Shown here: piece by piece, positions 3 through 63,145 of the stretch | How the letters are laid out: every line of letters begins with the position of its first letter | Numbering within the stretch: position 1 is the first letter of the stretch | Source: Pyropia haitanensis | Lineage: Eukaryota; Rhodophyta; Bangiophyceae; Bangiales; Bangiaceae | NCBI GenBank assembly: GCA_008729055.1 | Contig: SDUX01000002.1 | Coordinates: forward strand, 748,496-812,495 | Direction of reading: 5' to 3' | Length of the DNA stretch: 64,000 bases | The notes under the pieces: generated by a model | Told to the model about the DNA's origin: nothing | Seen by the model: the letters and a program-made list of their open reading frames with translations, nothing else | Database searches by the model: none | Translations under genes and position numbers: made by a program

Positions 3-586
3 GGCGGCGGCGGCCGCCCGCCGCGGCTCCCCCGCACGGTCGCCGGGGCGGTGGCGGCCTTCCTGTCCACCCCCGCCACGACGGCGCTGCTGCTGCTGTC
101 GCGGTCGGGCGGGGCGGGCCTCAACCTGACCGCCGCGACGCACGTGCTGCTCGTCGAGCCCGCCCTGTCGCCGGGCGTCGAGGCGCAGGCGGTGGGGCGG
201 GTGCACCGGATTGGCCAGACCGCCCGCACCACCGTCCACCGGTACGTTGTGGCGGGGACGGTGGAGGAGACGATCGTGCGGGTGCTCCATGGGGGGGGGG
301 GGGGGACGCCACCGGCGGTGGTGGCGGCGGTGGTGGCGGTGACGGTGGCGGTGGCGGCAGCGGCGGCGGCGGCGGCGGTGGTGAAGGGGGCGGCGGCGGC
401 AGCAGCGGCGGCGGCGGCGGCGTCAACGTCGTTGAGGTGGCAAACGGTGGCGGGAGGGGTGCCGACGGTGCGGTGGTGGAGGCGCCCGCCGGGCGGGCGG
501 CGCGCGCCGACGGCGGGTGCGCTGCGCCCGCGCGCGAGGCGGTGACGCTGCGGGACATCCACGACCTGTTTTTGAGGGGCCCCTAA
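3..586 (+). CDS. SHPRH-like SNF2 helicase, C-terminal end (5' partial)
   Basis: This is the 3' end of a gene that begins left of the window. The first roughly 80 codons carry SNF2 helicase motifs V and VI: a GGAGLNLT block, then VEPALSP and the arginine-finger segment VGRVHRIGQT. The spacing and wording resemble the helicase C-terminal lobe of SHPRH, a RING-containing DNA-damage ubiquitin ligase and DNA translocase; only the C-terminal lobe is in view, so RAD5-like relatives remain possible. The frame from the left edge runs into 15 G at 291-305 and then gives nonsense up to 545. The frame one base back encodes a Gly-rich linker and a sensible tail, VTLRDIHDLF, ending at TAA 584-586. One more G (or two fewer) in the run would join them. 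Confidence 0.75.
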   Translation, partial: RRRPPAAAPPHGRRGGGGLPVHPRHDGAAAAVAVGRGGPQPDRRDARAARRARPVAGRRGAGGGAGAPDWPDRPHHRPPVRCGGDGGGDDRAGAPWGGGGDATGGGGGGGGGDGGGGGSGGGGGGGEGGGGGSSGGGGGVNVVEVANGGGRGADGAVVEAPAGRAARADGGCAAPAREAVTLRDIHDLFLRGP

Positions 587-877
587 CGCGGACGGGGAAG
601 GGGGGGGGGGGGGGGACGCGGGGGGGAGGAATGCACGCGCCGGCCGACTTGCCGCGGCCGTCGTAGGGGGATGACCGACCGATCATTGGCGGCGCCACGG
701 GCTGTGGGCGCTACCGCGTGCGTGGCAGGCGGTGTCCCAAGGAGGGGCGTGGTGCGTAGGAGCGCCGGCCGGCCAAAGCTGGGTTGGCCCCTCGCTATGG
801 TCGGTCCGTACTGCCCTCCTTGCTCGGCGGTTGCGACGCCGTCCTGCCGCCATGCACGTCCGCTGTTGACGCCCTCC
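587..877. other. intergenic, convergent gene ends
   Basis: This lies between the helicase stop and the presumed end of the minus-strand low-complexity gene. It holds a 14-G run near 601-614 and otherwise no coding signal, RNA gene or clear regulatory motif that I can support. Confidence 0.4.
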
Positions 878-1160
878 TCAACGGCACTCGCCCGGCGACG
901 ACAGCACACACACCACCGTCTCGAGCGCGTCGAGCACCCCCCCGTCGTCGCGGGCCACCCCCCGCCCGCGCCGCCGCCAGCCGCGCGCACACAGCCCCCA
1001 TCGCGTCGGCGGCGGCATCGGCGGCACCGCTGGCCGACCCACTCGGGACGGCGCGCGGCGTCGGCGCTCACCCCCCTGGGCGGCGGCGGCCAGCGCCGCC
1101 CTCCACTTTGCGGCGGCCGCCCCCCCCCCTCCCCCGCCCCCGGCGCCGGCGCCGCCGGCG

Positions 1161-1191
<31 letters not shown>

Positions 1192-1232
1192 GCCCGAGTC
1201 GCCCCGCCCGCGGCGGGGCTCCCCCCCTGGCA

Positions 1233-1295
<63 letters not shown>

Positions 1296-1550
1296 CGCCC
1301 GACCGCCGACGCGGGGGCGTCTCGGCGGCCGCCGCCGCCGCCGCCGCCGTCGGCCCGTCTCGTCGGGCGCGTGGATTGGGGGCGTCGGCCGGCCGTCGCG
1401 GCGGGGCGGGCGGTGGCGGCGGGCGGCCGCGGCGGCGGCCGCCCAGCGCGCGTCCGCGGCGGCGGCGCGCGCGCGCGCGGCGGCGCGCAGCGCCGCCGCC
1501 GCGTGCCACGCACGGCACACCCCGCGGCGGCTGCACCACCGCCGCCGTCG

Positions 1551-1619
<69 letters not shown>

Positions 1620-1759
1620 TTCCCCCGCGGGCGGCAGCCGCCGCCGCAGCGGCGAGGCGGCCGCGGCGGCGGCGGCGGCCGGGAACACGGGGCCGCCGCG
1701 GAGCGCGACCGCCGCGGGTGGAGGGCGCGCCGCGGGCGTCGTCCCCCCCCCCCCCCCGC

Positions 1760-1793
<34 letters not shown>

Positions 1794-1918
1794 CCCCCCT
1801 TCCCCCCACCAGCGGCCGCCGCCGCCACCGCGCACCCGCAGCGCCGGCAGCAGCGCACGTGCGTCGCGCCGCCGACCACACCCGACGGCGCCGCCGACGG
1901 CGCCCAGCCGCGCGGCGT

Positions 1919-1974
<56 letters not shown>

Positions 1975-2336
1975 GCGGAGCGGCGGCGGCTCCCCCCGCC
2001 CGCAACGCGCGCAGCGCCGGCGCCGGGGGGACGAGGGACAGCCGCGGCGGCGGTTTTTTGGGTCGCCGCCGCCCCGGCCGCCGCCGCCGTGCGCGGTGAC
2101 GGCGGCGGCGGCGGCGGCGGCGCGCGGCCGCCGCCCCCGTGGTGGGGGGGCGCGGCGGCGGCCGCCGCCGCCGCCGCCGCCGGCGGTGGGGTGGGACCGC
2201 CCCGCCGCCAGCACCGACCGCCGGGCGGCGCGGGGGGGGGGGAGGGCAGCGCGTCTGGCGACGCCGACGGGCGCGGCGGCGGCGCGTCGGCCGGCGTCGG
2301 CCGGCGGTTGGCCGGCGGCCGCCCGCGACGCGGGCC

Positions 2337-2382
<46 letters not shown>

Positions 2383-2613
2383 GGCCACCGCCGCTGCCGC
2401 CGCGCCGCCGCCGCGGGGCGGCACGCCGCCCGCCGCGACGCGCGGCAGCAGCGGGGACAGCAGCGCCCGCGGCGCGTCGCGCGCAACCGTGTCGCGACCC
2501 GCTGGTAGGAGCGCACCCGCGGCGGGAGCGTCATGGCCAGCACGCACGTCACCCACACGGACGCCACGGTGCGCGGCGGGGCGGGGGGGGGGGGGGGCAC
2601 CCCGCCCCCACCC

Positions 2614-2652
<39 letters not shown>

Positions 2653-2985
2653 ACGTCTGTGCCGCCGCCGCCCGCGCCCGCCGCGGCCGGGCCGGCTGCA
2701 CCTCCCCCCTCCCCCCCCCCCCCCCCCCCCCCCGCCGGCACCCCCACGGCCTGCCCCGCCGCGTCCGCCGGCAGTGCCGGCAGGTCCCGCAGGTACAGCA
2801 GCCGCGGCCGGCCGCCCGCGGCGGCGTCCGCCACCGGCGGGGGCGCCTCCACCGCCCGCTCCGCGGCCTCGTGGGAGAGGATGGAGCCGACGGCGGTGGC
2901 GGCGTGGAGGCCATTGCGCAGCGCGTCTGAGCGCGCCTGCAGCACCTCAAACGGCTCCTCCTCGGGGGGGGAGGGGACGGCGAGG
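878..2985 (-). CDS. possible low-complexity protein gene, unknown function, frame-broken
   Basis: No family is recognised. Two stretches on the minus strand look like real protein rather than repeat. One is an apparent N-terminal part near 2985-2740 (EEPFEVLQARSDALRNG, then ILSHEAAERAVEAPPP). The other is a C-terminal part ending at 878 (KWRAALAAAAQG; DALETVVCVLSSPGECR and stop). They lie in different frames, separated by Gly/Ala/Pro arrays with C and G runs up to 32 bases. No ATG opens the N-terminal part. A pyrimidine tract followed by CAG near 3030 (minus strand) could be a splice acceptor, so an upstream exon may be missing. Treat boundaries as approximate; the whole could also be noncoding repeat. 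Confidence 0.3.
1154..2400. repeat. dense GC-only simple-repeat block
   Basis: This stretch is almost entirely trinucleotide arrays and homopolymers: C26 at 1166-1191, a GGC array at about 1554-1618, C15 at 1743-1757, C32 at 1761-1792, a GCC array at about 1919-1973 and another GGC array at about 2337-2381. All six reading frames stay open here for that reason, so open length alone says nothing about coding. Confidence 0.9.
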
Positions 2986-3174
2986 GGGGGGGGGGGGGGC
3001 AGGGGGGGGGGCGCACACCCCCGCTGCGGGGGGGGGGAAGACGACGGATGAGATCGTGCGTCCTACAAAGAGTGGATGTTGACGGTACGGGCAGGTGCAT
3101 GGAATCGCCGTCTGGACCAATGAATCCACACCTGCGCGTCCGAGCCACATCCACTTTTTAGCGGAAGCACCGCA

Positions 3175-3236
3175 AGGGCGGACCGCCCACTGGGTGCGCG
3201 GCGCGCAACGATAGGGCGGACCGCCCACTGGGTGCG
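3175..3236 (+). repeat. two direct copies of a 24-bp motif with a perfect palindrome
   Basis: A 24-bp motif occurs at 3175-3198 and again at 3213-3236, 38 bp apart. Each contains the perfect inverted repeat GGGCGGACCGCCC. It lies about 400 bp upstream of the COG7 start, between two divergent genes, so a protein-binding regulatory role is plausible but inferred only from position and symmetry. Confidence 0.5.
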
Positions 3237-3618
3237 AGGGGCGCCAGCTCCGCGGCGGGATTTGCCGCCACCGGCAGGTTTCAGTGCGCGTACGCTTTTT
3301 CCCCCCAAAGTTGACCAGGCCAAATGCCACGTGTGCGCGATTTTCGTACCCGACGGCAGCCCACTGCAAGCCAGAGCCGTGGGCGCCTGGCTCGTGGTGC
3401 CATGGACGGATCGGTGGCAGTCGGCATCGGATGCCGGCCGGCGGTCTGTCTGGCCGCCTCCTCCTCCGCCTCTCCCTGCTCCTCCTCCTCCTCCTCTCCC
3501 TGCTCCTCTTCCTGTCCCCTTTCCGCGTTTGTGTGGTGTCGCCCCTTTCTAGCCGCCCTTTTCTAACCATCGACGCGGTGCGGGGGGCGCCTTGCCTCCG
3601 CCGCCGGTGGCGGTCGCG

Positions 3619-6174
3619 ATGGCGGCCGGGCGCCCCCCCCCCGGGCGCCCCCCCCCCCCCCCCAACCCGCCCCCCCGCCTCGACGCGTCGGCCTTTGCGC
3701 GGCCCGCCTTTAGCGCCGTCGCGTGGCTCAACGAGGCGTTGCCCTCCCCCCCCACCGCCACGCCCGCCACCACCGCCCGCCTCGGCGCCGCCCTCGCCGA
3801 CGCCGCCGCGACGGCGCACGCGCAGCTGGAAGCGGCCCTCGCCGACGGCGTCGCCGCCGTCCCCGCCGCGGTGCGCTCCACCGAGGTTGTCCGCCGCCGC
3901 GGCACCGCCCTCCGCTCGTCCGTCGCGGGCGTCACGCGGCGTGTCGCGGGCGTCGAGGCGGGCGTCGCGTCGTCGGTGGCGGCCATCGCCGCCGCGGACG
4001 GCGTCGTCCGCCGCGTCGAGGCGGCGCGGGCCCTCCTCCGCGCCGCGGCGGACGCGGAGCGCCTGTCCGCGCGCGCCGACACGCTGCTCGCCGCGGCAGC
4101 CGCCGCCGGTGCCGCCGACGGCGCGCTGCCGGCGGCGGCCGACGCGCTCGCCGCGCTGCGCGAGGCGCTCGCGCCGCTGGGGGGGGTGCCGGAGCTCGCC
4201 GCCGGTCGCGCCGCGCTCGCCGCGGCGGACGGGCGGCTCGACGCGGCGGCGGCGCCGCGGGTGGCGGCCGCCGTCGCCGCGCGTGACGCGGGGGGGCTCG
4301 CCGCCGTGCGGGCGGTGTTTGTGCGCGCGCGCCGGCCCGACGCGTTTTGCAAGTACTATGTGGGCGCCTCCGCGACGGCGCTGCGGCGGCTGTGGGCCGA
4401 CACGTGGGCGGCGCCGCTGCCGGGCAAGGGCGGGGACGACGCCGATGCCGCTGATGCCGTTGGGGGGGGCGCCCGCGCGGCTACGCCGGACGCCGCCGCG
4501 GGTGGCGTGGGCGCCACGGAGGGGGGGGCGGCAGCGGAGGCGGCGGCGGCGGCGGGGAGCGCCGACGCTGCCGCCGACGGCGACGGCGGCGGTGCTGGCG
4601 GCGGCCGCGGCGGCACCCCCCCCCCGCGGCGGGTGGCGGACCTGACCACCCCCGACGGGGTGGTGCGGCTGGGCGCGTTTTACGACGCCCTCACCGCCGC
4701 GCTCGCCGCCGAGGCGGCCTGGCTCGCCGCCGCCCTCCCCGACATTGCCGGCACGCTGCTGCCGCGGGCGGTGGCGGCGGCGCTGGCCGCGCTCGGCGAG
4801 CCGGCGCTCGTCTCGTCCGCGGCGGTGGAGCGCGCGGCGGTGGAGCGCCGCGGCGACGGCGCGGCCGCGGCGGCGGCCGCCGCGGCCGCCGTCGACGCGC
4901 TCTACGCGTGCGCGGGGCTGTCGCAGGCGTTTGCGGGCCGGCTGGCGCGGCTGCTGCTGCAGTCGGCGGGCGGGCATCGTGACCTGGACCTGCCGTCGTG
5001 CCGGGTGGAGGTGTGGAACCGGGCGGCGGAGGAGGGGGGGCTCGCTGAGCTCGAGGGCGTCGCGGCGGCCGCCGCGGCGGACGCGGCCGCGGCGGCAGCC
5101 GCGTCAGCGGGGGCGGCAGACGGGGGGGCGGCCACAACAGACGCGGCCGTCCCCGCCGACGCCACGGGGAATGGGGTCGCGGCGGCGGCGGCGCAGCCGG
5201 GTGGCGGCGCTTCCCCCCCCCCACCGGCCGCCCCGCACGCCGTCGACTATGTCGCGGTAGAGTGTGCGCTGACGGCGGCGCTGTGGCCGTCGGAGCTGCT
5301 GCTCGACGCGGGCGCCGCCGTCGAGGCCGCCGCCGCGCGGTCGGGCGCGTCGGCGACGGCGGCGGCGGCCGCTGCCGCTGCGGACGCGTCGTCGGCCACC
5401 ACCGGCGGCGCCGGCGACGTGGCGCGGGCGGTGGAGATGGCGGGCGCGCCGCTGCTGGCCGCCGCCGCCGCCGCGGCGGACCGGATGCGCGACGTCGGCC
5501 GCGGCGCGGGCTACGGCGGCTGGCGCGCGACGGCGGGGGTGCTGGCGGCGGTGGCGAGCCGCCGTTTTGCGACGGCCAGCCACGGCGCGGCCGGCGCAGC
5601 GGCGGGCGCCCCAGACGCGGCGGCGGCGGCGGCGGCGGCGGCAGGGGGCGTCGGCGCCGCCGCCGCGGCTGGCTGGCCCGCCCTCTCCGCCGCCCTCCGC
5701 CTCCTCCGCGCGCTGTCGTCGCTGGCGCGTGAGTGGGACGACCTCGCCGCCGCGACCGCCGCGGCGCACGTCACCACCGCGGCGCCGCTGCTGCAGCGCG
5801 CGGCCGCGGCGGCCGACGCGTCGGCGGCGGTCAAGGCGGTGGTGTACGCGGCGGCGCCGTGCGCCGCCGACGGGGCGGTGCTGTGGGCGCTGGTCATCGC
5901 GCCGGGCCGGCGGAGGCGGCTCGTCGACGACCTGTCCGCCGCGCCCGCCGCGGCGGCCGACGTCGCGGCGGGCGACTGGGCGCCGGCGCTGCGGCTGATC
6001 CAGCACCGCGTCTACGACGCGATGATGGCGGGCGTGCGGCCGCGGCTCGACGCGCTGCCGGCCATGGCCGTGTGGCGCGCGGCGGGGGGGGATGCCGACG
6101 CGGACGGTGGGGTGGGAGGTGTCGGCGGTGGTGCCGGCGGCGGCGGCGGGGAGGGCGGCGGCGGCGGCGGGGAG

Positions 6175-6209
<35 letters not shown>

Positions 6210-6815
6210 GGGGGGGGGGGAGGTGCCACGGGTGCGGACGCGCACGCCGACGGCGGCGACGGCGGCGACGGCGGCGACGGCGGCGGCGGCTTTTCCCACT
6301 CGCCGCTCGCGTACGCGACGGAGGTGGCGGAGCACCTGATGACGCTGCCGCAGCAGCTGGAGCCGTGGGTGCCCGACGCGCCCGACACCCCGTACGCCGT
6401 CCCGTGGGCGGTGGCGGTGCCGGCGGGCGGCGGCGCCGCTGGCTTGACCCCCGCGCCCGCCGCCGACGACGACGGCGGCAGCTGGGCGGCGCGGTGGATG
6501 GCCGCCGTCGCGGGCGGCACGATGGCCCTCTACGTCGAGCGGCTGTGCGGCATCCCGCGGCTGACGCCGGGGGGGGCGGCGCAGCTCGCGACGGACGTGG
6601 AGTACGTCATGACGGTGTCGGCCGCGCTGGGCGTGCCGGCGGTGCCGGCGCTCGCGCTCGCGCGGCGGCTGCTCGAGGTGGACCCGGCCGCCGACGCGAT
6701 CCGGGCGGCGGTGGAGGCGCCGGGGGGGGGGGGGGGGGGGGAGCTTGTCGAACAGGAGCGAAAGAAGCTGGGGCGCCGCGTCGCGGCCGTCCGTGGGTTG
6801 CACGTTGACCTTTGA
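3619..6815 (+). CDS. COG7: conserved oligomeric Golgi complex subunit 7 (COG7)
   Basis: COG7 belongs to lobe B of the COG tether, which captures recycling vesicles at Golgi cisternae. The N-terminus has the family's DASAF...AVAWLNEAL segment, then long Ala-rich helices matching the COG7 coiled region (TEVVRRRGTALRSSV; RPDAFCKYYVG). The C-terminus (LMTLPQQLEPWVPD; QLATDVEYVMTVSAALG) matches the family end. The start is taken as ATG 3619. The frame breaks at 13 G (6208-6220), after which the correct tail continues one base back to TGA 6815. With one extra G the gene encodes about 1,065 residues, longer than animal COG7 because of Ala/Gly inserts. No intron is evident. The minus-strand reading of the same span is repeat noise. 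Confidence 0.82.
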
Positions 6816-11072: not shown

Positions 11073-14000
11073 TCACGGGCACCGGCGCTTGGCGCCACCC
11101 GCGGCCGCCGCGTCGGCGTCGGCGGCCTCGCTGGCCGCGCCCGCATCGCCGCCGCAGCAGCCGCCATGGTCGCCGCCGGCCGCACCCCCTCCAGACGGCA
11201 CCGCGTCGGCGCCGCCGCCGCTGCCGCCGGCTTCCCGCGATGCCTGCGGCGACGGCGACCGCGCGCGCTTGGCGCCTCGGCCGTCGGGGGTGCCGGCCGC
11301 GGAACCGCCGCCGCTGATGTTTGTCCCGTTGGCTGTTGCGACGGCGTCGGCGTCGGCCTTGACGTCGGCAAGCGGGGCGGAGGCCGCCGTGGCATCCACT
11401 GGCGGCGGCGCCGCCGGTACCGTCGGTGACGTCGCCGTTGACGCTGCGAGACCCCCATTTCCCGCGGCCGCCGTCGTCGTCGTCGTCGTCGCGGCCATCG
11501 GCTCGTCTGTCTTGGCCGCCTCTTTCACCAAAGCCGCCTCCACCGCCGCCACCGAATGGATCGCGCTGTCACCCGGCGGCGAGGCGGTCGACGACACGTG
11601 CTCCGGGGCCACCGGTAGTGCGGCGGCGGCGCCCTCGTCCGCTTTGGCGGGTGTGGCTACGGGCGCCGCCGCAGCGGCGCCCCCGTCTGCCTTGACGACC
11701 GGCGCCGCCACTGAGGCGGGGGTGGTGGCCGCCGCCGGTCTGGCAACCGCGGACGACCGTGGGGGCGTCCCGGCGTCTGCTGGCGGCGCAGCCGCCGTTG
11801 CGGCAGCTGCGTGAGGGGAGCTCGCCTCTGCTGGCTCAGCCGCCGCTGTGGCCGCCGTCGGCGCGGTGGCGTCTCCGGCCGGCCCATCCGTCGGGGCCGC
11901 AACCGACGGCGCCGACTCGTCGGTATCCCCCGGCAGTGCGGCACCTGCCTCCGACGCCGCCGCACCCGCTGCCGCCACGACCGCTGCCGGCCCCGCAGGC
12001 GCCACCGCCGCTGCCGACGGCACCGCCGCTTGCGCCGGGGCGTCCCTGGCTGGCCCATCGTCGGGCACGTCAATGACCTCGGCCGCCGCCGCCGCGGCCT
12101 TCGCCGCCGCCGCCGCCGCGGTCGCCGGCGGCTCGCCCGCGGCTACCGACGCGGCCACCGCTTCCGCTGCCGCCACAGCCGCGAGCATGGGCGAGTCCCC
12201 GTCCGACCCGTCGTCAGACACGTCAATGACCTCGGCCGCACACCCCTGCTGGCTGGCCGCCCCCGCAGACCCCGCGGCACCGGCCGCCGCCGCCGCCGCC
12301 TCCCCCCCCCCCCCACCTCCTCCGCCGCCTCCTCGGGGGGCAGCGACGCCAGCAGCCGGCGCAGGCTCGCCTCCTCGGCGCGCCCCGCCGCGGCCGCTTT
12401 GACCGCGGCCCCGTGGAGGGCGCGCGTCTTGCGCAGCTCGACGTACGCGTCGCGGCCGCGGCCGCCCGGCGTGGCGATCGCCGACCACCCGCCAGCCACG
12501 TCGAGGCCGCGGCCAAACGCGGCGGCGACGCGGCGGGCGGCGGGGAGGCCCGCAAGGCCCGTCAGCTGCGTGGTGACCGCGGTCGGGGAGCGAAAAAAGG
12601 CGGCCACCCCGGCGTCGGCGGTCACCGCGTACGGCAGGGACGTGGCGGGCATGGCCCAGGTAAAGGTCGGCCCGGCGCCGCCGACCGCCCGTAGGCGGGA
12701 CTTGGCGAGCGCGCGCACCAGCGCGGCGGCGCCAGGCGGGCCGCGCAGCGCCGCCGCGCGGACAGCCTTGTCTGCCAGCACTTCTGCCAGCACCGACGGC
12801 GGAGCGGCCGCGCCGATCGCGCCCGCCGGCGTGCGGCGGCCGTCGGCGCTCTCCGCGGCGGCCGCAAACGCCTTCACGCCGACGCCCGTCGCGGCGACCG
12901 CCCGCGCGAGCGTCACAGCCGCCTCGTCGCGGTGGCCGCCGCCGGAAAACGCACCGTACTGGCGGCCCGGAAAGGTCACCCCGATCGCTGCCCGAAGGAG
13001 CGCGCCAAACGCGGGCACGCCCGCCAATGCAGTGGCGGGCCCCGACGCCGACGCCGCGGTGACCGCCGCCTCCACGGCCGCCGCGCCGAGCATCGGGCTC
13101 AGTACCCGCACCGCCGCAACCGCCGCGGTCCGCCCGCCGCTCACCACGCCAGCCGCGACGCTCCCGGCGGGCGCCGCCGCCGCGGCGGGGCCGTACAGCA
13201 CCCGAAGTGCGGCGGAGAGCCCGCACAAAAAGCCCCCCCCGTCGGGCACATCCGGCACGATGGACCGCAGCCACGCGGTCACGGCGCCAGCGGCGGCCGC
13301 CAGCAGCGGCGCCACGGCGGCGGGCGTCGTGCCCGCCAGGCGGACGAGCAGCGCATCCGCCGCCTCCGCGCCGCCCTTGGACGCACTCGCCGCGACGGCC
13401 TCGGCCAGCGACGGTGCCAGCGCGTCCATGGAGAAGGCCGCCACCGCGTCAGCGACGGCCTCCCCCGCCGCAGCCGTTGGAAGGCCCCCCGGCTCAGGCG
13501 GTCGGCCGGCGTAGGCGGGCGGCTTGGCCTTGGCCAGCTCCGCCAGCACCTGCCGCGTCGCGCCGCCGCCGTCGCTGACACGGATGGCCAGGCGGAGCAG
13601 CCGTGCCACGTCGGGCCCGTGCACGTACCGCGTCGACGCGAGGCACGAGCGCAGCTGGCCGAGCATATCCGCACGGCCCGCGGGGGTGGCCGCGTCGAGG
13701 CGGTCGTCGACCACGTCCATTGCGGCGGACAGACCAGTGGCGGCCGCCACTGCGAGCGTGTGCGCGCGAGGCCAGACAAAGAGGGCGGCCAGCGAGTAGC
13801 GAAATTCAACGGTGGTGCCCTCGTTGCCAGTCGTCTCAATCTCCTCGTCCGAGGCGTCCGTGTCAAAGCCTGCGCCGTTGCCCGCGTCGATCATGTCCGT
13901 CGCGGGGTCCACGGCAAAAGGGGACAGGACCGACGGGCTGCCGTCGGGGGTCACCCACGCGTCCACCTCCACCTCCTCGTCTTGCACGTCGTCAATGCGC

Positions 14001-20169: not shown

Positions 20170-23058
20170 TCAACCCGACGGCATCGGGCGCATGCGCCCC
20201 CCCCCCTCCTCCCCCACCTCCACCAGCCACTCGTGCCAGCGGCGGAGCCCCCCCCCGTGCGCAACGGTTAGCCCCGCGCCCGCGGCGGACCGGAGCGCCG
20301 CCATCACCGCGTCCGCGGCGGCCGCGTCGAGCGGCGCGGTCGGCTCGTCCGCGACGAGCAGCGCCGGCCGGTGGTAGACGGCGCGGGCGGCCGACAGGCG
20401 GGCGGCCTCGCCGGGCGTGAGCACGTCCGCCCACATGTCGCCGGCGGCACCGGCCGCGGCGGCGGCGGCGTCGGTGGCGACCGCGGCGGGGGGGGCGGCG
20501 GCGCCGCCACCAGCGCTTCCGGGCGACCCCGCCCGCGACGAGGCGCCCCCGCCGCCACCCGACGCGCGCGCCGCGGGGACGTCAGCAGCGGCGGCGGCCG
20601 CCGCCGCCGCCACGTCGGCCGCCACCGCCCCCGACAGGGGCACGTCCAGCAGCCGCCGGGAGAGCGCACGCGGGAAGCCCACCGCGTCGACGGCGGCGAG
20701 GACGGCGCGCCGCTCGGCGGCGGCGGCGGGGGTGGCGCCCGCGGCGGGCGCGTCCGGGTAGACAATCATCTCACGCAGGCTGCGGGCGGTGCCGAGGTAG
20801 GGGCGCTGGGGGAGGAACAGCACGCCCCGCCGGCCGCCGCGGCGGCGGGGCGGGGGGGGGGGGGGTGCAACAGACGACGGCGCGCCGCCCGCGTCGTCGC
20901 TGGCAACGGCCAGCGCCACGTGGTCGGGCGTGCCGCCGCGGCTGACCGCCCGCCCGGCGGCGGCCGTGTCCGCGCCGTCGTCGTTGCGGACAGCGTGGTG
21001 GCCATGTTTGTCGTCGTCGGGCAGCCACGCGTCGCGGCGGAGGAAGACCTCCCCCGACGCGGGTGGCCACAGCCCCGCCAGGACGCGGAGCAGGCTGGTC
21101 TTGCCCACCCCCGACGGCCCCTGCAGCAGCACCCACTCGCCGGGGTGGACGGACAGCGAGACGGGCGTGGCGGCGAGGAGTGGCGTGCCCCGCGGTGCCG
21201 ACGCGCTCGGCAGCGTCTGCACCGTCACGGCGGCGAGCGCGGCCAGGACGGGCGCGGGGGGGGGCGACGCACCCCCGCTGCTGGCGTCGGCGGCCGAGCC
21301 CGCCACCCCCAACGCCCGTTCCGTAGCGTCGCCCGAGACGGGGGACGGCACCCGCGAGCAGCGGGGCGACAGCGACACGGCCGTAAGGTCATAGGGGGAC
21401 GTGCCAGGCGAGGCCGTGCCGGCCGCCGCACCCGGCGACGCCACCTCCTCGTCGCTGCTGTCGTCCACACCCGCGGCGTGGCCGCCGCCGCCTCCCCCGT
21501 GGGGCCCCCTAAATGCGCGGTCAACCGACGGCGGCAGCTGCACCAGCTCCTCAGCCTCCTCCCCACCGGCGGGCGGGCGCACCCGTCCACCCCGTCTGCC
21601 GCCGCCCTCCGCGTCGCGTGCCGCGGCCACGACGACGCCGCCGCCGCGGCCGCCGCCGCTGCGCCGCCCCCCCCCCTTGACGCCCCCCCGTGACTCCATC
21701 GCCGCGGCCACCCCCGCCACCCGCGCGGCGTAGGCGGCGAGGTCGGCAACGTGTGTGCCCAACTGGATGAGCGTCGTGAAGCTATACAGCAGCTGCATAA
21801 AGACGCTGCCCGTCTGGGACACCCACCGCGCGCGGCCGGGGCCGTCGGTGGGCACGCCCCACGCGCCGCCGCCCCCGCCGCCACCACCGTCGTCACCGTG
21901 TGCGCCCGCGACAAAGAGCGCGTACCCCAGCGCCCCGTACATGACGCCGCTGACGTAGTAGCCGTACCCATACTCAAGCGTGTTCAGCCGCACGTGCGCG
22001 GCAATGACCGCCCACACGCGGTCGACGGCGGCGGCGAGGAGGCCGTCCAGGCGGCGGCGCTCCTCCGCCTCCCCGCCCGTAAACGCGACGCCCTCGGCGG
22101 CCCGCCGGAGCGCCACGTGCTCGTTGCGGAGGCGCGCCTCGGCCGCCTCAGCGGCCGCCACCCGCGGCGCCGCCACCGCCGCCGCGCCGACCGTCACCGC
22201 CGCCGCAGCGGCCGACCACGCGACGGCCACACCAAGGGCGGGCCACCCGGCACGGACGGCCGTCTGGACGGCGTACCATCCGACGCTGCCGCCGGCTTCG
22301 AGCGCCCCGCCCGAGCCAGTGTCCCCGCCCGCCAGGACGGTGAGGAGGGTGGCCGTCCCGTCGCGCACGTCCGTCACCATCCGCTGGTCGGGCGCGTCGA
22401 GGGCGCCGCCGTCGGCCAGCGCCACGAGTGGCGACACCACGTGCCACGCAGGGGTGCCGTCGGCGTCGGCGGCACCGCCGCCGTCGCCGCCACCCCCGTC
22501 CCGCCCCCTAGCCTCACGCGGCACGCGCAGGTAGCGCGCGTGGAGCGCGCGCGTCAGCGCGGCGCGGCCGCCGACCGCGGCGGCCTCGCGGAGGTACGCG
22601 CGCCCCACCTTGGCCGCCACCGTCGCGGTGGCGAGCACGAGCAGCCACGCGAGGGCGCGCCGGAACGCGGCTGCGTCGGCGGCGACGAGCGCGGCGTAGA
22701 GGTCGCCGGGCGCGAGGATGAGGTAGTAGCCCAGCGCCGCGTACGCGGCGATCGCGGCGGGCAGCGCCGCCGCGACGCGGCGGTCGGATGGGGTCGCGTA
22801 CGGGAGCGCCAGCCGCGTGAGGTAGGCCAGCTGGGCGAGGAGGGGGCGGCCGACCGTGGCCTGGGGGGAGGGGGGGGAGAGGGCAGGGGGGGGCGCCACC
22901 GCGTGTGCCCAGCCACTGCCGTCACCGTCACCGCTGCCGCTGCCGCCACTGCCGCTGCTGCCGCCGCTGTCGCGTCTTCCACCAAAGGCGCCGCCGCCAC
23001 CGCTGCCACCGTCCATCAGCGGGGCGCCCTCGGCAGCGGCAGCGGTAGCAGTCTTCAT
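20170..23058 (-). CDS. ABC half transporter, ABCD (peroxisomal/lysosomal) type
   Basis: A 962-residue half transporter: an N-terminal membrane domain with about six hydrophobic segments (residues about 80-470) followed by one nucleotide-binding domain. Subfamily D traits are present: [10 protein letters not shown] (the NPDQR motif), an EAA-like segment before the NBD ([16 protein letters not shown]) and [23 protein letters not shown] motifs are Walker [12 protein letters not shown], signature [14 protein letters not shown] in place of LSGGQ, Walker [13 protein letters not shown] with the catalytic Glu, and H-loop His in [12 protein letters not shown] proteins dimerise to move acyl-CoAs or cobalamin; the substrate is undecided here. 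Ala/Gly inserts enlarge the NBD between the Q-loop and signature. The start is ATG 23058 and no frame break is needed. Confidence 0.88.
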
Positions 23059-23925
23059 GACAGAGAGACAGTCAGAGTCAAGCGGCAATGGCGGCACTCA
23101 GCCAGCGGCAGCGGCGCAGCGGCAGAAGAAGGGTAGCTGCCGATGGGTGCTCATGCCCTCTAGCACAGCCGAGAGGGATGCCGGGGGGGGGGCAGTCGAC
23201 GAGGGGGTGGCGACAGCTAGGAGGTGGGCTGATGCGGGGGGGGTTCGCGGCGGCCACGCGGTGGTGGTGGGGAGCGAGGGTGGCGGCGGTCGAGGACAGC
23301 CATAAATAGCTCTGGTGCTTCCCAGCTCCTCGCCCGCACCGGCCCACGGATCCAATCCTATTGGCAGGTGTCCCTCGCCTGTCGATTTCCAGCGGACTTT
23401 CTGCGAACATTCCCACGTGTTCGAGTCACGTAGCAACATTTAAAATTATTTTGTACACGTGTCCGAGCGACGTCGGGATGAGGGCTGCAGTCTGTGGTCG
23501 ATGCCTGCGCAATCTGGGCAAGCGCGCGGCGCGACCTTCGTGTTGACAAGGGGGCAGCCCGTGCGCCACGCGCCCCCCGTGTTGACCTGGCGGCTCGTTG
23601 TCCAACAGACGTAGTACCCGCTGGTCTGGTCTCCTCCCGGGAGGACCTGTTCGCCACGGGCGCCATGGCGCCCGGGTCGCGGCCGACCATATATCGTGGG
23701 GGCGGTCCCGACCCCTGACCACTGTGGCTGGCTGTTGTCTGCTGCTGGTCTCTCTGTCTGATCCCGCGGTGTGGCTCTGGTCCCCCCAAGCTGAGCACTT
23801 CTTCTGCTTGGTCGGTGGACGTCCCGGTGGTCGACGCGCGCTGGTGGGACGCGAGGCGGTGGGACGGGAACGCCCGCCTGGCAGCGCTGCTGGCACGGCG
23901 AGAGCGACTGTGGGAGCTCGCAGGG
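23059..23925. other. divergent promoter region, ABC gene / DUF262 gene
   Basis: It serves the ABC gene to the left and the DUF262 gene to the right. GC falls near 23440 in a short AT-rich patch (TTTAAAATTATTTTG). A TATA-like element lies at 23689-23694. The open frame leading into the DUF262 gene starts at 23719 without an ATG before 23926, so additional untranslated or spliced leader is possible. Confidence 0.4.
23689..23694 (+). promoter_or_regulatory. TATA-like element before the DUF262 gene
   Basis: ATATAT within CCATATATCG stands out in GC-rich surroundings and lies about 235 bp upstream of the proposed ATG at 23926, compatible with a short 5' leader. The assignment is positional only. 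Confidence 0.3.
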
Positions 23926-27911: not shown

Positions 27912-28763
27912 ATGGGCTCCTCCCCCCCCCCGGCCCCTTCCCCCCCCCGCCGGCACCTCCTCCTCTTCACCAAACACCCCACCCCCGGCCACGCCAAGAC
28001 GCGCCTCATCCCCGCGCTCGGCGCTGCCGGCGCGGCGGCGCTGTCGCGGTCGCTGTCGGAGCACGCCCTCGCCGTCGCGCGCGCGTTTGTCGGGGGGGCG
28101 GCGGCCACCGCGCCCACCGATCTGGTCGTCTGGTACGCACCGGCGGCGGGAAAGGGGCGGACAGACGGCGGGGAGGGGGGAAGGGGGGGCGGGGATGGCG
28201 ACACCGACGCCCACGCCGACGCCGCGGCGATGGTGGCGTGGCTGGGCGCGCCGCGGGAGGGGGAGGCGTACCGGCGGCAGCCGGCGGGGAACCTTGGCGA
28301 CCGCCTCGTGGGCGCCTTGACCGCCGCCCTCAGCGGCCACGACGCCCGTGACGACGACGACGACGGCGGCGGCGGCGGCGGCCGCCCGCCGCGGCCGCCC
28401 GCCACGGCGGTGGTCATGGGCGCCGACATCCCCGGCATTACCCCCGCGGACCTCGAAGCGGCGTTTGCCGCGCTCGAGGCCCCCCCCACGCGCGGCGCCC
28501 CCCCGCCCCCGCGGGCGGTGCTCGGCCCTGCCGCCGACGGCGGGTTTTACCTGCTCGGCGTTGCCGCGCCGCCGCCGCCGCCGGGGTGCCTCGACGGCGT
28601 GCCGTGGGGGGGGGCCGACGCGCGGGCGGCGACGGTGGCGCGGCTGGGGGGGGGGCGGCCGTCGTCGGGCGCGTGCTGCGGGATGTGGACGAGCCGGCGG
28701 ATGTGGCGGTGTGGGAGGCGGTGCGGCGGGCGACCGCGGGGGGGGGTGCCGGCGGGGGGGTGA
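27912..28763 (+). CDS. DUF2064 glycosyltransferase-like protein (TIGR04282 type)
   Basis: This matches the DUF2064 family of GT-A-fold nucleotidyl/glycosyl transferases. LLLFTKHPTPGHAKTRL at the start is the nucleotide-binding segment, GNLGDRL lies mid-protein, VVMGADIPGITPADLEAAF holds the metal-binding Asp, and AVLGPAADGGFYLLG is the acceptor-side motif. In bacteria members often sit beside a GT2 enzyme; here the gene stands alone. The frame breaks at 10 G (28646-28655). One base back it continues with the expected VLRDVDEPADVAVWEAV end. The stop is uncertain because further G runs follow; TGA at 28761-28763 is used as an approximate end. Asp/Gly inserts lengthen the loop near residues 80-100. 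The precise substrate is unknown. Confidence 0.72.
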   Translation: MGSSPPPAPSPPRRHLLLFTKHPTPGHAKTRLIPALGAAGAAALSRSLSEHALAVARAFVGGAAATAPTDLVVWYAPAAGKGRTDGGEGGRGGGDGDTDAHADAAAMVAWLGAPREGEAYRRQPAGNLGDRLVGALTAALSGHDARDDDDDGGGGGGRPPRPPATAVVMGADIPGITPADLEAAFAALEAPPTRGAPPPPRAVLGPAADGGFYLLGVAAPPPPPGCLDGVPWGGADARAATVARLGGGRPSSGACCGMWTSRRMWRCGRRCGGRPRGGVPAGG

Positions 28764-47235: not shown

Positions 47236-49441
47236 AGCGTTGGGGTATAGGGAGCACGGGCACCCCCCCCCCCGGCGTCCGCCCCGCCGGGGATGGTCGT
47301 CCCCCCTGGGGGCCCCCCTGGGATGCCCCCTCCCTGGGTTCCCCCCGGGATGGGCCTCCCTGGCGTTCCGCCGGGGATGGGCGGCCTGCCGGGTGCCCCG
47401 CCGCCTGGCTCCCCCGCGTATGCCGCCCTCCACGCGTCGTTTGTGGCCGCCCGGCAGCAGCACCTGCAGCACCTGATGATGCTGCAGCAGTGGCGGGTGG
47501 CCGAGGCGGCCCGCTGGGCGGCCGCCGAGGGCGGCGCCGCCGCCGCCGGGGGGGGGGCGCCCCCGCCGGGCGGCCGGCCGGCACCGCCACCTGGCGGAGC
47601 TGCCAGTGGAGGAGGGGGGGGCGGGGGGGACCTCCCGGTCGCGGCGGCGGCAGTGCCTTCGACGCTGCCGCTGGATGCGACCGTGGGCGGGGGCGGTCCT
47701 GGTGCGGGTGTTTTTGCGGCCGAGCCGCCGCCGCCATTGGGGGCGCCGCCATCGGCACCGCACGGTTTAGGCGGTCACCGTGATGGAGATGGCCACGGCG
47801 GGAGCGGCGGGAGCGGCGGGGGCGGGGGCGGCGGTGGCGGGGGCGGCGGTGGCGGCAGTCATGAGGCCCGGTCAGCGCCCGTCGCCAGTCTGCCGACGCC
47901 ACCACCAATCCAGGGAGTGGCGGCCTTGTCGCTCACGGCCACGCCGGCTGCGCCTCCGCCTCCGCTGCTTGCCGCGCCCGCCGCGGTCGCCCCGCCTGCA
48001 GGCACGCCCGTCACGAGTACCCCGCTTGCGGGCGTGCCCGCTGTGACCGCTGCCAACGGGCCAGTGCCGGCGCGGGTGGCCAATGGCGGCGGGGGCGGCG
48101 GCGGCGCGGTCGCGGTGGCGGCGCCAGTGGCTGGCGTTGGTCGGCAGGCAACCGCGGCTGCCGCGCCTGGCGGCGGCGGGGGCGGCGCCCCGCCGGGCCG
48201 CCGCGAGTGGCGGGTGCCGGGCCGCGCGGGCGGTGCCGCGGCCGGCACGGCTGGGGGCGGTGGCGCCGGCGCCGGCGCCGGGCGGCTCAAGCGGGTGACC
48301 CCCCGCACGACCGAGCCACTGCCGACGGCGGCGGTGACGACGACCGTGTCGGTGGCGTTGCTGCAGCTGCTGGACGAGGCGGTCGCCGCGATGGACGCGG
48401 CGGTGCGGCCCGCGGCGGCGGACGGGGAGGCCAAGGCCGCGCTCCTCGCCGCCATTGGGCGCATCTGCCGCGCGGACTTTCGGCTCGCGACCGTGTGGAT
48501 GTTTGGGTCGTCGGGCTCGGGGCTGGGCCTCCGCGGCTCGGACGTGGACTTGTGCATCAGCGTGCCTGCCGCGGCGGCGCGGCACCCCCAGTCGGGCTCC
48601 CTTCTCAGCCGTGCGGGCATCATTCGGCGGCTCGCCTACACCCTCCGCCGCGCGCAGATGGGGGCGGTGGAGGAGCGCCTCCACACGCGTCAACAGCTCG
48701 CCGCTGGTGTGATACAACACGGAACTCCTCGCCACGTACGCGGCGCTCGACGGGCGGGTGCCGCCGCTGGCGCGGTTGGTCAAGGCGTGGGCACGGGGGC
48801 GGGTGATCAACCAGCCTTACCGGGGGACGCTCAGCTCGTACGCTTACGTGCTGCTGCTGCTCTTCTTCCTCCAGACCCGCCCCGTGCCAGTCGTGCCGTG
48901 CCTCCAAGCGCGCGCACGGGAGGTCGCGCTGGCGGATCCGCTCGAGAGCGGGGGGGGTGGCGCCGCCGCCGCCCCCGCGCCGGCCGCCGACCCTGGCGCC
49001 GCTGGCACCGCCGACGTGCCCGTCGTCGTGCACGAGGACGGAAGCCGCTCGCGGATGGTCGACGGGTGGAACACGTACTTTGACACCGACCCGACGGTGC
49101 TGCCCGGCGGCGCCGCCTCCGGCGGGGGCGGCGCCCGCAACACAGACAGCATTGGCCAGCTCTTCCTCGGCTTCCTCCACTACTACGCGTTTGAGTGGGA
49201 CTATGACGCGGCGGTCGTGTCGGTGAGGGCGGGACGGCCGCTGGCCAAGACGTCCAAGGCATGGGACGAGGCGTCGGTGGCGCGCCTCCTCGAGGCGCAG
49301 GCCGCCCAGGCGGTCGCAGACAAGGAGGCCCACGAGGCGTCGGTGGCGCGCCTCCTCGAGGCGCAGGCCGCCCAGGCGGTCGCAGACAAGGAGGCCCACG
49401 AGGCGCGGGCGGCGGCCAACAAGGCACGTGAAGCGGAAGCG

Positions 49442-51383: not shown

Positions 51384-51424
<41 letters not shown>

Positions 51425-52458: not shown

Positions 52459-53260
52459 ATGCCCCCCCCCCCCCCCCCCATGGCGGTCACCGCCGTCGTG
52501 CGGGTGCACCCCCACCCGCACCCCGCCGACCCACCGCTGCGCATTGAGCGCCCCCCCCCCAACGGCGGCGCGCCGGTGGTGTGGCTGCCGCCGCCCCCCC
52601 CCCCCCTCAGGCCCACCGCCACCGGTCTCGGCGGCCGCGTCGCGGCGGCGGCGGCGGCGGCCGCCGCGGCGGGCCGCCGCCACGCCGTCGACGCGGTCAT
52701 TACGGGCGGCACGGCGGCGCTGTACGCGGCGGCGGGTGCGCCGGCGGTGGCGGCTGTTGCGGGGGGGGCCGACGCGACGGTGCTGGCGGTGGGGGCGAGC
52801 GGGTCGGGCAAGACGACCGCGTTGATGGGGGGGGTGGGGGGGGGGGGGACGGGGAGGATGGGGGTGGCGGTGCCGCCAACGGGGGGCTCGTGGGGGGGGT
52901 CATCAAGGGGCTTTTTGCGGCCGCCGCGACGGCGGCGGCCGCCGACGCGGCGGTGGCGGCGGCGGCCGACGGCCGCCGTGCCGGGTGGCGAGCCGGTGGG
53001 CGGGGGGGACGCGGAGGTGAACATGGACGTGGTTGACAGTGACGCCGCCGACGACGACGGCGGCGGCATTGCGGGGTGGCGGCCTGTGTCGTGGCCGCTC
53101 GACGACGGGCGGCTGCTCGCAAGGTGGCCGTTGGGTTGTCGTGGCCGCTCGACGACGGGCGGCTGCTCGCAAGGTGGCCGTTGGGTGCTGGGGCGATGGC
53201 GTTGGGCAGCTGCTGGCGTTGGTGCGAGAGTCGGCGCGGCTGCCGACGAGCTCCTCCTGA
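52459..53260 (+). pseudogene. kinesin motor-domain fragment, truncated
   Basis: After ATG 52459 or 52480 the protein resembles the N-terminal third of a kinesin motor: AVTAVVRVHPHP, GRRHAVDAVITGGTAALY, GADATVLAVGASGSGKTTAL with the P-loop, then, after a frame change at the G8/G13 runs (52827-52848), NGGLVGGVIKGLFAAA, which fits the helix following the P-loop. The switch motifs (SSRSH, LVDLAGSE) are not found before the sequence changes character at about 53261. A 50-bp frame-shifting duplication (53089-53186) lies in the rest. The last open frame ends at TGA 53258-53260 after GQLLALVRESARLPTSS. It is probably an interrupted or decayed gene. Confidence 0.52.
53089..53186 (+). repeat. 50-bp tandem duplication
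   Basis: The unit beginning TCGTGGCCGCTCGACGACGG starts at 53089 and again at 53139, nearly perfect over 48 bases. The period is not a multiple of three, so it shifts the reading frame in the kinesin fragment. Confidence 0.9.
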
Positions 53261-54003: not shown

Positions 54004-54012
54004 GCCGCGCGG

Positions 54013-54913: not shown

Positions 54914-54914
<1 letters not shown>

Positions 54915-55103: not shown

Positions 55104-55126
55104 TTTCTATGGGGTAGGCCGCCGCG

Positions 55127-57335: not shown

Positions 57336-57468
57336 AGGACAGCCGCGGAGGCCGCATCGAGCCACAACAGCACCGGCGGGGGCACGTAGCCCGCAAAAGA
57401 GACGGCCGTCCGCAGGTACCCCCGCATCAACGTGGTACATACAGTACGTACGGCGCGCGGCTCCACAC
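57336..57468 (-). pseudogene. decayed MAPEG fragment
   Basis: On the minus strand, GYLRTAVSFAGYVPPPVLLW then LDAASAA parallels the end of the intact MAPEG gene at 41900-42352 ([27 protein letters not shown]). Just upstream, in a shifted frame, WSRAPYVLYVP corresponds to [11 protein letters not shown]. The stop codon at the equivalent place is missing and the frame is broken, so it is a remnant of a paralogue about 15 kb from the intact copy. Confidence 0.6.
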
Positions 57469-59591: not shown

Positions 59592-59876
59592 ATGTGCTCG
59601 ATGGCGGGCGGGGCGGCGGGGGGGGTCGCCGCCGCCGCGCCGGCGCTCCTCGACGGTCTCGCCGCCGCGGCAGCCGCCCCGCCGGGGACGCCCGGTCGGG
59701 AGGAGGAGGTCGCCGCAACGGCCGCGGTAGTGGGGGCGGTGGAGCGGCTGGCGGCCGCGTCGCCGGCGGCGACGGCGGCCGAGGCAGCCGCCGCGGAGCT
59801 CCCGCCGCTCGTCACCCACCCGCCGGCGCGCGGGGGGGGGGGGGGCGGCGGGGGGGGGGGGGAGGGGGGAATGTGA
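59592..59876 (+). CDS. hypothetical Ala-rich protein or 3' exon, doubtful
   Basis: From ATG 59592 the frame has the purine-first, GC-third codon pattern of local genes and reads [36 protein letters not shown] and AEAAAAELPPLVTHPPA, probably helical. It runs into two long G tracts and a nearby TGA at 59874-59876. No family is recognised. The open frame extends back to 59283 without an ATG, so this may be the end of a longer gene. Confidence 0.3.
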   Translation: MCSMAGGAAGGVAAAAPALLDGLAAAAAAPPGTPGREEEVAATAAVVGAVERLAAASPAATAAEAAAAELPPLVTHPPARGGGGGGGGGGEGGM

Positions 59877-60524
59877 GACGCGGCCGGGGAAGGGCGTCCC
59901 CAAGGGGGGGGGGGGGGGCGTGCCGGGTTCCTCAGCGCTGCGAGGGCGCGGCGAGCGCCAAGACGATGGGGGGGGGGGAAAAGACGGTCGAGAGCGGAGC
60001 TGTGCACGCCCCCCCCCCCCAGTGGCCAGAACCAGCGATTGCCTTGATGCAGACAACGCCAGCATCTCAGCCTACGCGGGAGCCTCGTGGCACCGTAAAG
60101 TCGGCTCGTCGCACTTGTTGGACACCCGCCACGCCCTGGGCTCCACTGCGGGACTTGAGGGGTCATGTACCGATGTACGGCCAAATCCTTCGCTAACATG
60201 GACTTGGATCAGCTGGTCCCCTTACGCTTAGGGGCGAAAATCCCAGGGGACCAGGGGGGGGGCCGATTCCAGGCAATCCAGGGGGGGGGGTGGTCCCCTC
60301 AGCGCTGTGGTGCTTCAAGGGAGGTTCAGGAAAAGTCTCTTTTGCCCTGTTGCGGGGCCCGCAGACGAGTCCAAAGACGGTGGCCAGGATGGCTGTGGAA
60401 CGCGTTTTTTCTCGGATTTTGCGGATCCGCTGTGGGCCATATGCAAAACTTTGCGGAGCACCGCGCGGCACTTTAGTGCATCAGCCAATTATCACTCAGC
60501 ACGCGTGGTGCCCTCGGTCACAAG

Positions 60525-60544
60525 CCAATCAGTACTCTTTATAG
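60525..60544 (+). promoter_or_regulatory. CCAAT plus TATA-like pair
   Basis: CCAAT at 60525-60529 followed by TTTATAG at 60538-60544, about 1 kb upstream of the beta-propeller ATG. The long distance means either a long or spliced leader or an unrecognised transcript. Confidence 0.25.
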
Positions 60545-61293
60545 GCCCGGCGGCTTCCAGGGAGAATGCGTATGCTGAGGGCCTGTCCACAGGTTTTGTG
60601 TGGATTCAACAATTTTCTGCGGGGTGTTTTTGACAACTGCTCTGGGGCGCACAGGACGGTGACGGTCGGGCGACATACGCCCTGCTCTCTGACATGCTCT
60701 TGTAGCTCTGCTCACGATGCTTCACGTACTGGTGGTACGCAGGGTGTATGTCGACCGACGGCACGACCACAGGAGATAGGCAAAAAAAATAGAGAAAACT
60801 GGGGCGCATCGTACCGTGAGAGGGGGTCCACAAACGAGTGCGCAGCCCGCAAACACGATTTCGGGCCGATTCCTGAACCTTGCTTTAAGCACCACCGCGC
60901 AGGCCAAGTGGATACTGCTTTCCTCAGCGGATCGGGGGGGAGCACGGTGACGACGGCACGAGCATCGCCAACCGCAACACCAAGAGCTGCGGCGGCCGCC
61001 ACGTGCGCTGCGTGCCGCCCGCCGCGGGGTGTGGCGGCGCGCCGCCCTCTCAACGCGCCCGCCGTCCCGGTGGGGTGCCCGGAATGGCCACCGCGCAATG
61101 CCGGTAACGCGGGAGAGGTGGCGGGGTGGGGGCGGGTAGGGCTGCAGGGGACGGGGAGGGCACGCATGGGGAGGGGTGGGCAGGGGAGGGGGAGAGGGGC
61201 GCAGGGGGGGGTGCGCCGGTTGCGGTGCGCCGCGGTGGGCGGCGCGCCTCGCTCGCCGCTCGTGTAGGTGGGAGCGGCCGAGCAACGGGAGCG

Positions 61294-61366
<73 letters not shown>
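61294..61366. repeat. (GGC)24 array
   Basis: Near-perfect GGC trinucleotides in the presumed 5' leader of the beta-propeller gene; it will encode poly-Ala, poly-Gly or poly-Arg in different frames. Confidence 0.9.
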
Positions 61367-61369
<3 letters not shown>

Positions 61370-61564
61370 GCCGCGCCCTGCGTGGCTGGGGGTGTGCGTC
61401 CGCTGTGGCGCCGACGCGGCGGCCGCGGTGGTCGCGGCCGCCGTGCTTTGACCCGTCCCCGCCCCCGCCGCAGCACCCGCGGCCACTGCCTACCCGCCGT
61501 CTCCCTATCCCCCCCTCTTTGTCCCCTCCCGCGGCGTCTTGCCGACGCCGCTGCCGCCGTCGCG

Positions 61565-63145
61565 ATGGCCTGGCCGTTGCGGCGACGCCGCCCCCCCCCC
61601 CCCGGTGGCGCGCCGCCGCGGCGGCGGCGGTGCTGGCCGCCGCGGCGGGGGCCCCCCTCCTCCGTTGCCCCCTTGCGGTGGCGGCGGCACCCGCGCTGAC
61701 CAAGGCCACCCCCGGTGACCTGACCGTCACCACCGTTGGCGCGCCCACCGGCAATGACGAAGGCCGCTCCGTGGCCGTCGACGCGTATGGCAACGTGTAC
61801 GTGCTCGCCGTCACCGCGTCGCGGTACGGCGCGGCCGACGTGGCGGGCCTCGACGGGCCCGACACGGACGTGCTGCTCGTCAAGCTGTCCGCGTCGGGGC
61901 GGCTGCTGTGGCGCCGCCGGACGGGCTCCCCGGCCGACGACCGGCCGGTGGGGATGGCGCTGGTGGGTGGCTGGCTGGTCGTCGTTGGCCAAACGTACGG
62001 CGACGTGACCAGAGGGGGGGACGCCGCGGCTGGCCACCCCGCCGCCGCCGCCGCCGCCGCCTCTGCCTTTGTGCTGTGCTATGACGCGGACAGCTCGCGG
62101 CGGGTGTGGGCGCGGCAGTGGGTGCCGCCGGCGGGCGGCGGCCACCACAGCTGGAACGCGGTCACGGCGGGGGCGGACGGGGAGGTGTGGGTGGCGGGGC
62201 ACTCGGGCGCGGGGCTGTTTGCGTCGGCCGCCGACGCGGCGGCAGCCGCCGACGGCGGCGGCCGGCCGCCGCCCGTGGCGGTGGTGGTGGCGCGCCTCGA
62301 CGGCGCGACGGGCGCGACGCTCCAGGCGGGCTCGGTGGTGCACCCGGCGGGCGCGGACGCGAGCGCGGTGGGGGTGGCCCTCACCCCAGACGGCGTCGTC
62401 GTGGCCGCCCAGACGCGGTCGGCGGCGGCGGGGGTGGCCGCGGGCGCGCCCACTGTCGTGGTGGAGGACCTGCTGCTGGTGCGGCTCGCGCTCGACGAGC
62501 GGCTGGGGAGCGGCGGCGGCAGCGGCAGCGGTGGCGGCGGCGGCGACTACCCGCCGGCGCTGCGCGCGACGGGGGTGCGGGTGGTGTCGACGGCCAGCCG
62601 GTACTATGTGCGGGGCGTGGCGGCGGGCCCCCCCGGCAGTGGCCTCGTCTACGTGGTGGGCTCGGAGCACCGCGCCGAGGCGACCGCCCACGACGTGTCG
62701 GTGCGTGCCTACACCACCGCGGGCCTCGACGACGGGCCGCTGACGCTGGTGCACGACACCGCAGCGGGCGGCCGCGGCGGCCGCGACGGCGGCGACGAGA
62801 CGGCCACGTCCGTGGCGGTACTCCCGGGCGGCCGCCTCGTCGTGGGCGGCGCGGTCAAGGCGGTGGGCGGGCCGACCGGCGGCGCGGCGGTTGTCGTCAC
62901 GCCCAGTGTGTGGGTGGTGGACCCAGACACGGGCGGCCTCGTCCGGTTTACGACCGCCGCCGCCGCGGCGGGTGCCGGCGGCTGGGCGGAAGTGACGGCC
63001 GTGGCGGTCGACGCGGACGGGGACGTGGTCGTGGCGGGCTACGTCAATGCCGGCCGCGAGACGGACGTGCTGGCGGGGCTCCTCGGCCTTCCCACGGCGG
63101 TCAAGGCGCCGGCCACCGCGGGCGGCGGGCGGCTCCCGACAGGGA

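Follow-up and report, generated by a model that had tools for sequence, protein, structure and literature searches.

Why do otherwise recognizable genes of the red alga Pyropia haitanensis change reading frame at long runs of G or C? The question arises from a stretch of 64,000 nucleotides (hereafter the window; GenBank assembly GCA_008729055.1, contig SDUX01000002.1, positions 748,496 to 812,495 of the forward strand). A preliminary description had listed seven genes there as broken at such runs, all of them rejoined by adding one base or removing two (add-one) and never by the opposite step (add-two), and had offered two readings: an assembly that under-counts the runs by one, or expression that slips on them. 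We conclude that the frame breaks are very probably an artefact of the assembly, in which homopolymers are under-counted, usually by one base; this is most likely an error of a familiar type, and nothing here demonstrates new biology. The first of the two readings fits our data, whereas slippage during expression gained no positive support, in an analysis that did not systematically look for signals next to the runs.

All G/C runs quoted in that description were found at their coordinates, and about five of the seven breaks are sound. Three are backed by continuous relatives: those in a COG7-like gene, a DUF2064 gene, and a beta-propeller gene. Their best named relatives among the matches listed come from Pyropia vietnamensis or P. 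yezoensis, at 65-81% identity; relatives were compared as protein models, not as DNA. The protein searches with these three genes returned, among the matches listed, no protein of the same species from another assembly. The COG7 and beta-propeller genes have close locus numbers in P. vietnamensis (MMPV_002572 and MMPV_002557) and in P. yezoensis (I4F81_001972 and I4F81_001956), indicating that gene order is probably conserved.

In the COG7-like gene, the P. vietnamensis protein P0098 contains a glycine-rich linker and shows no gap, and the window gene aligns with it in different frames on either side of the G13 run. Between the GTs beside the run and the return of conserved sequence there is no AG, and an intron with its 3' end at the AG directly past the run is unlikely, as P0098 retains the linker. 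The P. yezoensis model P0099 (I4F81_001972) omits the glycine-rich linker with its conserved FSHSPLAYATEVAEHLMTLP residues, together with a second block, which suggests that an annotation program may have spanned frame breaks in that assembly as well. For DUF2064, the two closest relatives among the matches listed, P0001 (metagenome) and P0002 (P. vietnamensis), pass from RLGG or RLGA straight into VV.GR.LRDVDEP, and no AG that could end an intron lies near the G10 run. In the beta-propeller gene, the C13 run falls between the start and a signal-like N-terminus; relatives P0100, P0101, and P0102 each combine a basic, arginine-rich or short start with a subsequent RWR motif within a single protein, matching the joined window protein. 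Frame scores 5' of this run are uninformative or favor another frame because only about 13 codons precede it.

Two further breaks have mainly frame-score support. The oxygenase-like gene gave a one-base step at all four flank lengths, and its upstream piece had no Pfam match. The kinesin-like gene gave the same step at flanks of 60, 100, and 150 bases and none at 240, owing to an opposite-type frame change near 52971; joining its halves raised the Pfam Kinesin score from 19.2 to 22.6 bits, below the cut-off of 29.3. Right after this fragment, positions 53060-53250 (plus strand) hold repeated WPLDDGRLLARWPLG-like readings with the look of a minisatellite.

The other two sites fared less well. 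In the SNF2-family gene, the frame scores changed from +2 to +1, the step that had been claimed, with a Helicase_C match upstream and no Pfam match in the downstream piece. For the 60-100 unmasked bases past the G15 run, the upstream frame remains the best-scoring one, which places the break more probably in the triplet repeats that end at 422. At C11:742377-744388 of the assembly, upstream of the window, SNF2-domain matches occupy two open frames, probably of the gene that enters the window, so that the frame must change, or an intron intervene, at least once more there. The break claimed for the transferase at a C11 run is unsupported: upstream no plus-strand frame stands out, and downstream one does so at 240 bases only.

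We then asked how frames behave at runs in general, using a second-order codon-position model that was seeded with window genes and fitted label-free on the window and sampled stretches. The scan set comprised 27 sequences (317,013 bases), seven of which (L028 to L034) were added after training, with runs and simple repeats masked. The seed genes were partly chosen by the earlier reader and may favor window sites, and many calls fall in low-complexity DNA whose gene status is not established. Artificial changes were called correctly in 77 of 77 cases in each direction, showing no built-in bias. By frame, a one-base deletion is indistinguishable from a two-base insertion.

Frame changes at run clusters exceed chance. 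In the first setting (150-base flanks), 20 of 52 clusters changed frame (31 unchanged, 15 add-one, 5 add-two, 1 strand change) versus 9 of 939 run-free control positions (918 unchanged, 5 add-one, 4 add-two, 12 strand changes). The strictest setting gave 21 unchanged, 12 add-one, and 1 add-two, with 1 strand change (controls 853/1/2, with 6); the third gave 20/13/5 with none (controls 681/3/0, with 8); and the fourth 26/17/5 with 2 (controls 767/5/2, with 16). When runs of at least 9 were merged within 80 bases, the counts were 15/16/3 (two-sided p for direction 0.004). Add-one steps outnumbered add-two steps in all six settings (12-17 versus 1-8). The rate of change also rose with the longest run in a cluster: in the first setting, 1 of 19 clusters changed at lengths 8-9, 10 of 17 at 10-12, and 5 of 6 at 13-16, and at 17 or more 4 of 9 changed, with one additional strand change. 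The other three settings likewise climbed up to 13-16. All five add-two clusters of the first setting hold at least two runs, as additive under-counting predicts; many add-one clusters are also multi-run, and single-run add-two cases appear under other groupings.

Runs as such are not special to the breaks, since they are abundant everywhere. The genome comprises 52.9 million bases in 136 contigs, at least two of which exceed 7 Mb, with a mean GC content of about 72% across 18 sampled 10-kb stretches. In those stretches, G/C runs of at least 8 occur at 0.5-6.4 per kb; the window holds 96 runs of at least 10, of which 48 reach at least 13, and a 13-G pattern matches 62,726 and 61,905 overlapping places genome-wide, one figure per strand.

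Breaks with homology on both sides point in the same direction (Table 1). Among 11 such breaks, 10 were add-one and 1 was add-two (two-sided binomial p of about 0.012); four of them, COG7, DUF2064, beta-propeller, and kinesin-like, are window breaks chosen by the earlier reader, and two are weak members, the window kinesin-like gene (22.6 bits) and the kinesin L036 (25.4 bits), both joined and measured against the cut-off of 29.3. Composition hits that had no two-sided homology were left out of the 11: L005 (two), L010, L013 at 2453 (nothing convincing in Pfam on either side), L014, L017 (two places, of which 3837 has a Hint module downstream and no Pfam match upstream), L023, L024, L027, L030 at 159 and 253, L031, L032, L033 (several), and window positions 2583, 12302 (the oxygenase), and 59332; these enter the composition scans only.

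Three of the breaks outside the window (PPTase, beta-galactosidase, and ATP12) were composition hits that gained Pfam support when the halves and the join were scored. The others came from searching the whole genome with profiles for kinases, kinesins, SNF2, sugar transporters, UCH, and tRNA synthetases, which revealed adjacent partial matches in different frames. Seven such pairs were read: three kinases, three kinesins, and one UCH. By coordinate arithmetic, five of the six remaining pairs (one UCH and five SNF2, including the gene entering the window) are add-one and one is add-two, and introns are possible in them; a degenerate SNF2 copy on C27 was also among the remaining matches. The kinase genes L038, L039, and L040 share GT...AG introns at the DLK^PEN/PDN position, which by the same arithmetic give one add-one and two add-two steps. 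One of these introns contains G15 and T14, another G8 and C12, and the third no run of at least 7. Elsewhere, C3:1194356-1204283 holds three partial kinesin-like matches spaced by about 5 kb, and C3:3606001-3614311 two equally scoring kinase matches separated by about 7.5 kb; both sets are perhaps recent tandem copies.

Table 1. Runs, frame changes, and in-frame genes in the window and elsewhere in the assembly (runs are given in the sense of the gene; bit scores are Pfam matches)
Feature	Location	Strand	Remarks
SNF2-family gene, 3' part	291..422	+	Frame changes somewhere from G15 (291-305) to the GGC/GCG repeats that end at 422
COG7-like gene 5' of G13	3619..6207	+	Putative start; in-frame C10 at 5213-5222
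G13, COG7 frame change	6208..6220	+	+1 base or -2 bases restores frame
COG7-like gene 3' of G13	6222..6812	+	6291-6812 corresponds to P0098 residues 872-1050 (84%)
G13, 2OG-oxygenase-like frame change	12302..12314	-	Frame scores on both sides; candidate family name, judged by eye
ABC transporter gene	20170..23097	-	Single open frame of 975 codons; in-frame counter-example
G10, ABC gene	20197-20206 and 21667-21676	-	
G9, ABC gene	20248-20256	-	
C14, ABC gene	20852-20865	-	
C9, ABC gene	21256-21264	-	
DUF2064 gene 5' of G10	27912..28645	+	Putative start
G10, DUF2064 frame change	28646..28655	+	
C11 5' of nucleotidyltransferase gene	47263..47273	+	Claimed break unsupported
G8/G13, kinesin-like P-loop region frame change	52827..52848	+	Frame scores, weak homology
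C13, beta-propeller gene	61591..61603	+	Three relatives
ATP12, C23 and C17	L013, 8752-8811		Add-one; 71.3 to 81.7 bits joined; upstream half alone no match
Beta-galactosidase, G9	L018, 665-673		Add-one; BetaGal 37.7 to 45.3 bits joined; downstream half alone no match
PPTase, G12	L019, 4289-4300		Add-one; AASDHPPT_N 13.1 to 18.3 bits joined, below cut-off 27; ACPS all downstream, 54.5 bits
Kinesin, G16	L035		Add-one; 51.0 to 69.6 bits joined
Kinesin, G24	L036		Add-two; longest single run among homology-backed breaks
Kinesin, G14 and G7	L037		Add-one
UCH, G9	L041		Add-one

The step is thus not strictly uniform, and the statement that the opposite never occurs does not hold: the G24 run of kinesin L036 requires two added bases, add-two cases appear in every composition scan, and the window itself has two opposite-type changes, one near 52971 and one at 48680-48725 (plus strand). 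The latter, in a poly(A)/U-polymerase-like gene with a nucleotidyltransferase palm domain 5' and a PAP_assoc domain 3', has no long run nearby, and part of what we take to be the usual middle of such a protein seems missing; a small intron, local assembly loss, and decay are candidate causes.

Genes with long runs also stay in frame. The ABC transporter gene had been presented as an intact gene free of long runs; its frame is indeed open, yet it holds five of them. The C14 run sits between the Walker A region and what is presumably a Q-loop-like motif, and G10 between the membrane and ATPase parts. A PRP28/DDX23 helicase gene (L030) carries G17 inside an uninterrupted frame, with a helicase region of 269 bits 3' of the run and a short 4.4-bit match 5' of it that is not significant alone, and the C10 run of COG7 itself is in frame. 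The preliminary observation therefore holds at about five of the seven sites; both the uniformity claimed for it and its negative control went too far.

Together, these data favor under-counting of homopolymers in the assembly, because of the skew in direction, the rise with run length, the presence of equally long runs in broken and in intact genes, and the continuous relatives. Measurement error is expected to leave some runs of a given length broken and others in frame, and slippage that depends on the flanks could yield this as well. The GC-rich genome is full of G/C homopolymers, some of them within loops of ordinary proteins that are rich in glycine, proline, and alanine. In the proposed course of events, many long runs would be recorded too short in the assembly, mostly by a single base and occasionally by two; and genes truly in frame would then seem to need one extra base per affected run, the missing base being present in the real DNA. 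If so, a measurable share of the assembly's genes would be falsely broken (in the first setting, 15 of the 23 scored clusters whose longest run measured 10-16 changed), which in GC-rich algal genomes would distort gene counts, the calling of pseudogenes, and intron prediction. The result is a caution for annotation.

Several points weigh against this explanation. The seven homology-backed breaks outside the window, taken alone, give 6 add-one versus 1 add-two (p = 0.125). Scan clusters outside the window gave 10 versus 5 in the first setting, although 8 versus 1 in the strictest. The least favorable grouping, in which runs of at least 9 were merged within 40 bases and neighboring runs were counted apart, gave 15/17/8 (p = 0.11). 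Strand-blind miscounting predicts equal rates for sense-G and sense-C runs, whereas 18 of 40 sense-G clusters and 2 of 11 sense-C clusters changed in the first setting, with the same tendency in the others; these numbers are small. The break without a run at 48680-48725 is left unexplained. Finally, homopolymer indels, mostly false deletions, cause frame breaks in intact genes according to the accessible part of PMC12007338, and the likeness to our case lies in exactly this; that part of the source concerns nanopore sequencing (which may not be the method behind this assembly), small genomes, and runs of two to eight, with more errors in A/T than in G/C, whereas here G/C runs of 9-24 are affected in a GC-rich eukaryote.

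Alternatively, the assembled lengths could be true, through strain mutations, pseudogenes, or cell-to-cell variation in length of which one state was assembled. We consider this improbable. Homopolymers mutate fast, and the window kinesin-like gene is ragged past its break, both of which would suit true mutation; such mutations should, however, go both ways, and so many conserved genes are unlikely to be broken together. No near-identical second COG7 copy was present among the matches listed (best 40 of 1271 candidates scored), and high identity to relatives on both sides of the breaks argues against decay.

A second alternative is that the assembled lengths are correct and that at G/C runs RNA polymerase or the ribosome gains one base or passes over two, so that complete protein is still produced. 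This would be a novel form of recoding across a eukaryotic genome; we judge it quite improbable. Slippage at homopolymers is a known process, as the accessible parts of PMC5009743, PMC4256274, and PMC8254509 indicate. The broken genes COG7, UCH, PPTase, and ATP12 are otherwise well conserved, and the lower rate at sense-C runs, the one result leaning this way, on small numbers, could be explained by a process at the RNA level. Slippage would, on the other hand, break in-frame genes with equal or longer runs, namely the ABC gene (C14 and G10) and PRP28 (G17). Sense-C runs are broken as well (ATP12 and beta-propeller), and the G24 run takes the other step. At the protein level, P. vietnamensis likewise has a glycine-rich linker in COG7, whereas the relatives of DUF2064 and the beta-propeller protein are continuous and have no equally long stretch. 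A rule by which the same class of run always shifts fails, as C14, G10, and G17 stay in frame; context-dependent slippage escapes this test. Its specific form, in which RNA polymerase II or ribosomes routinely advance the frame by one base at some poly-G runs and, more rarely, at poly-C ones, with the flanks deciding and out-of-frame runs tolerated in ordinary genes, strikes us as very improbable.

Least probable of all, runs lying in spliceosomal introns of length 2 modulo 3 are rejected as a general cause on the close-flanked sites, with no room between conserved residues at DUF2064, beta-propeller, UCH, and kinesin L035, GT...AG bounds with a gap found at the three kinase genes, and mixed frame steps there, even though introns are present in this genome, can hold runs (at least 12 long in two of the three kinase introns), and may still account for SNF2 and ATP12.

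Two known biological systems resemble our case in part; a search for papers on homopolymers in Bangiales gave no relevant one among the matches listed. Transcriptional slippage, described in the accessible parts of PMC5009743, PMC4256274, and PMC8254509 for bacterial insertion sequences, an interrupted tssM, and potyvirus PIPO, is alike in that a base gained at a homopolymer joins two frames. There, expression uses or rescues the site; here, the runs are of G/C, the outcome is mixed at equal length, and the breaks are known from DNA alone. In bacterial homopolymer phase variation, as far as the accessible parts of PMC8808543 and PMC5953494 describe it, tract length likewise sets the frame, whereas our case concerns a eukaryote and its ordinary cellular genes, with one prevailing direction of change.

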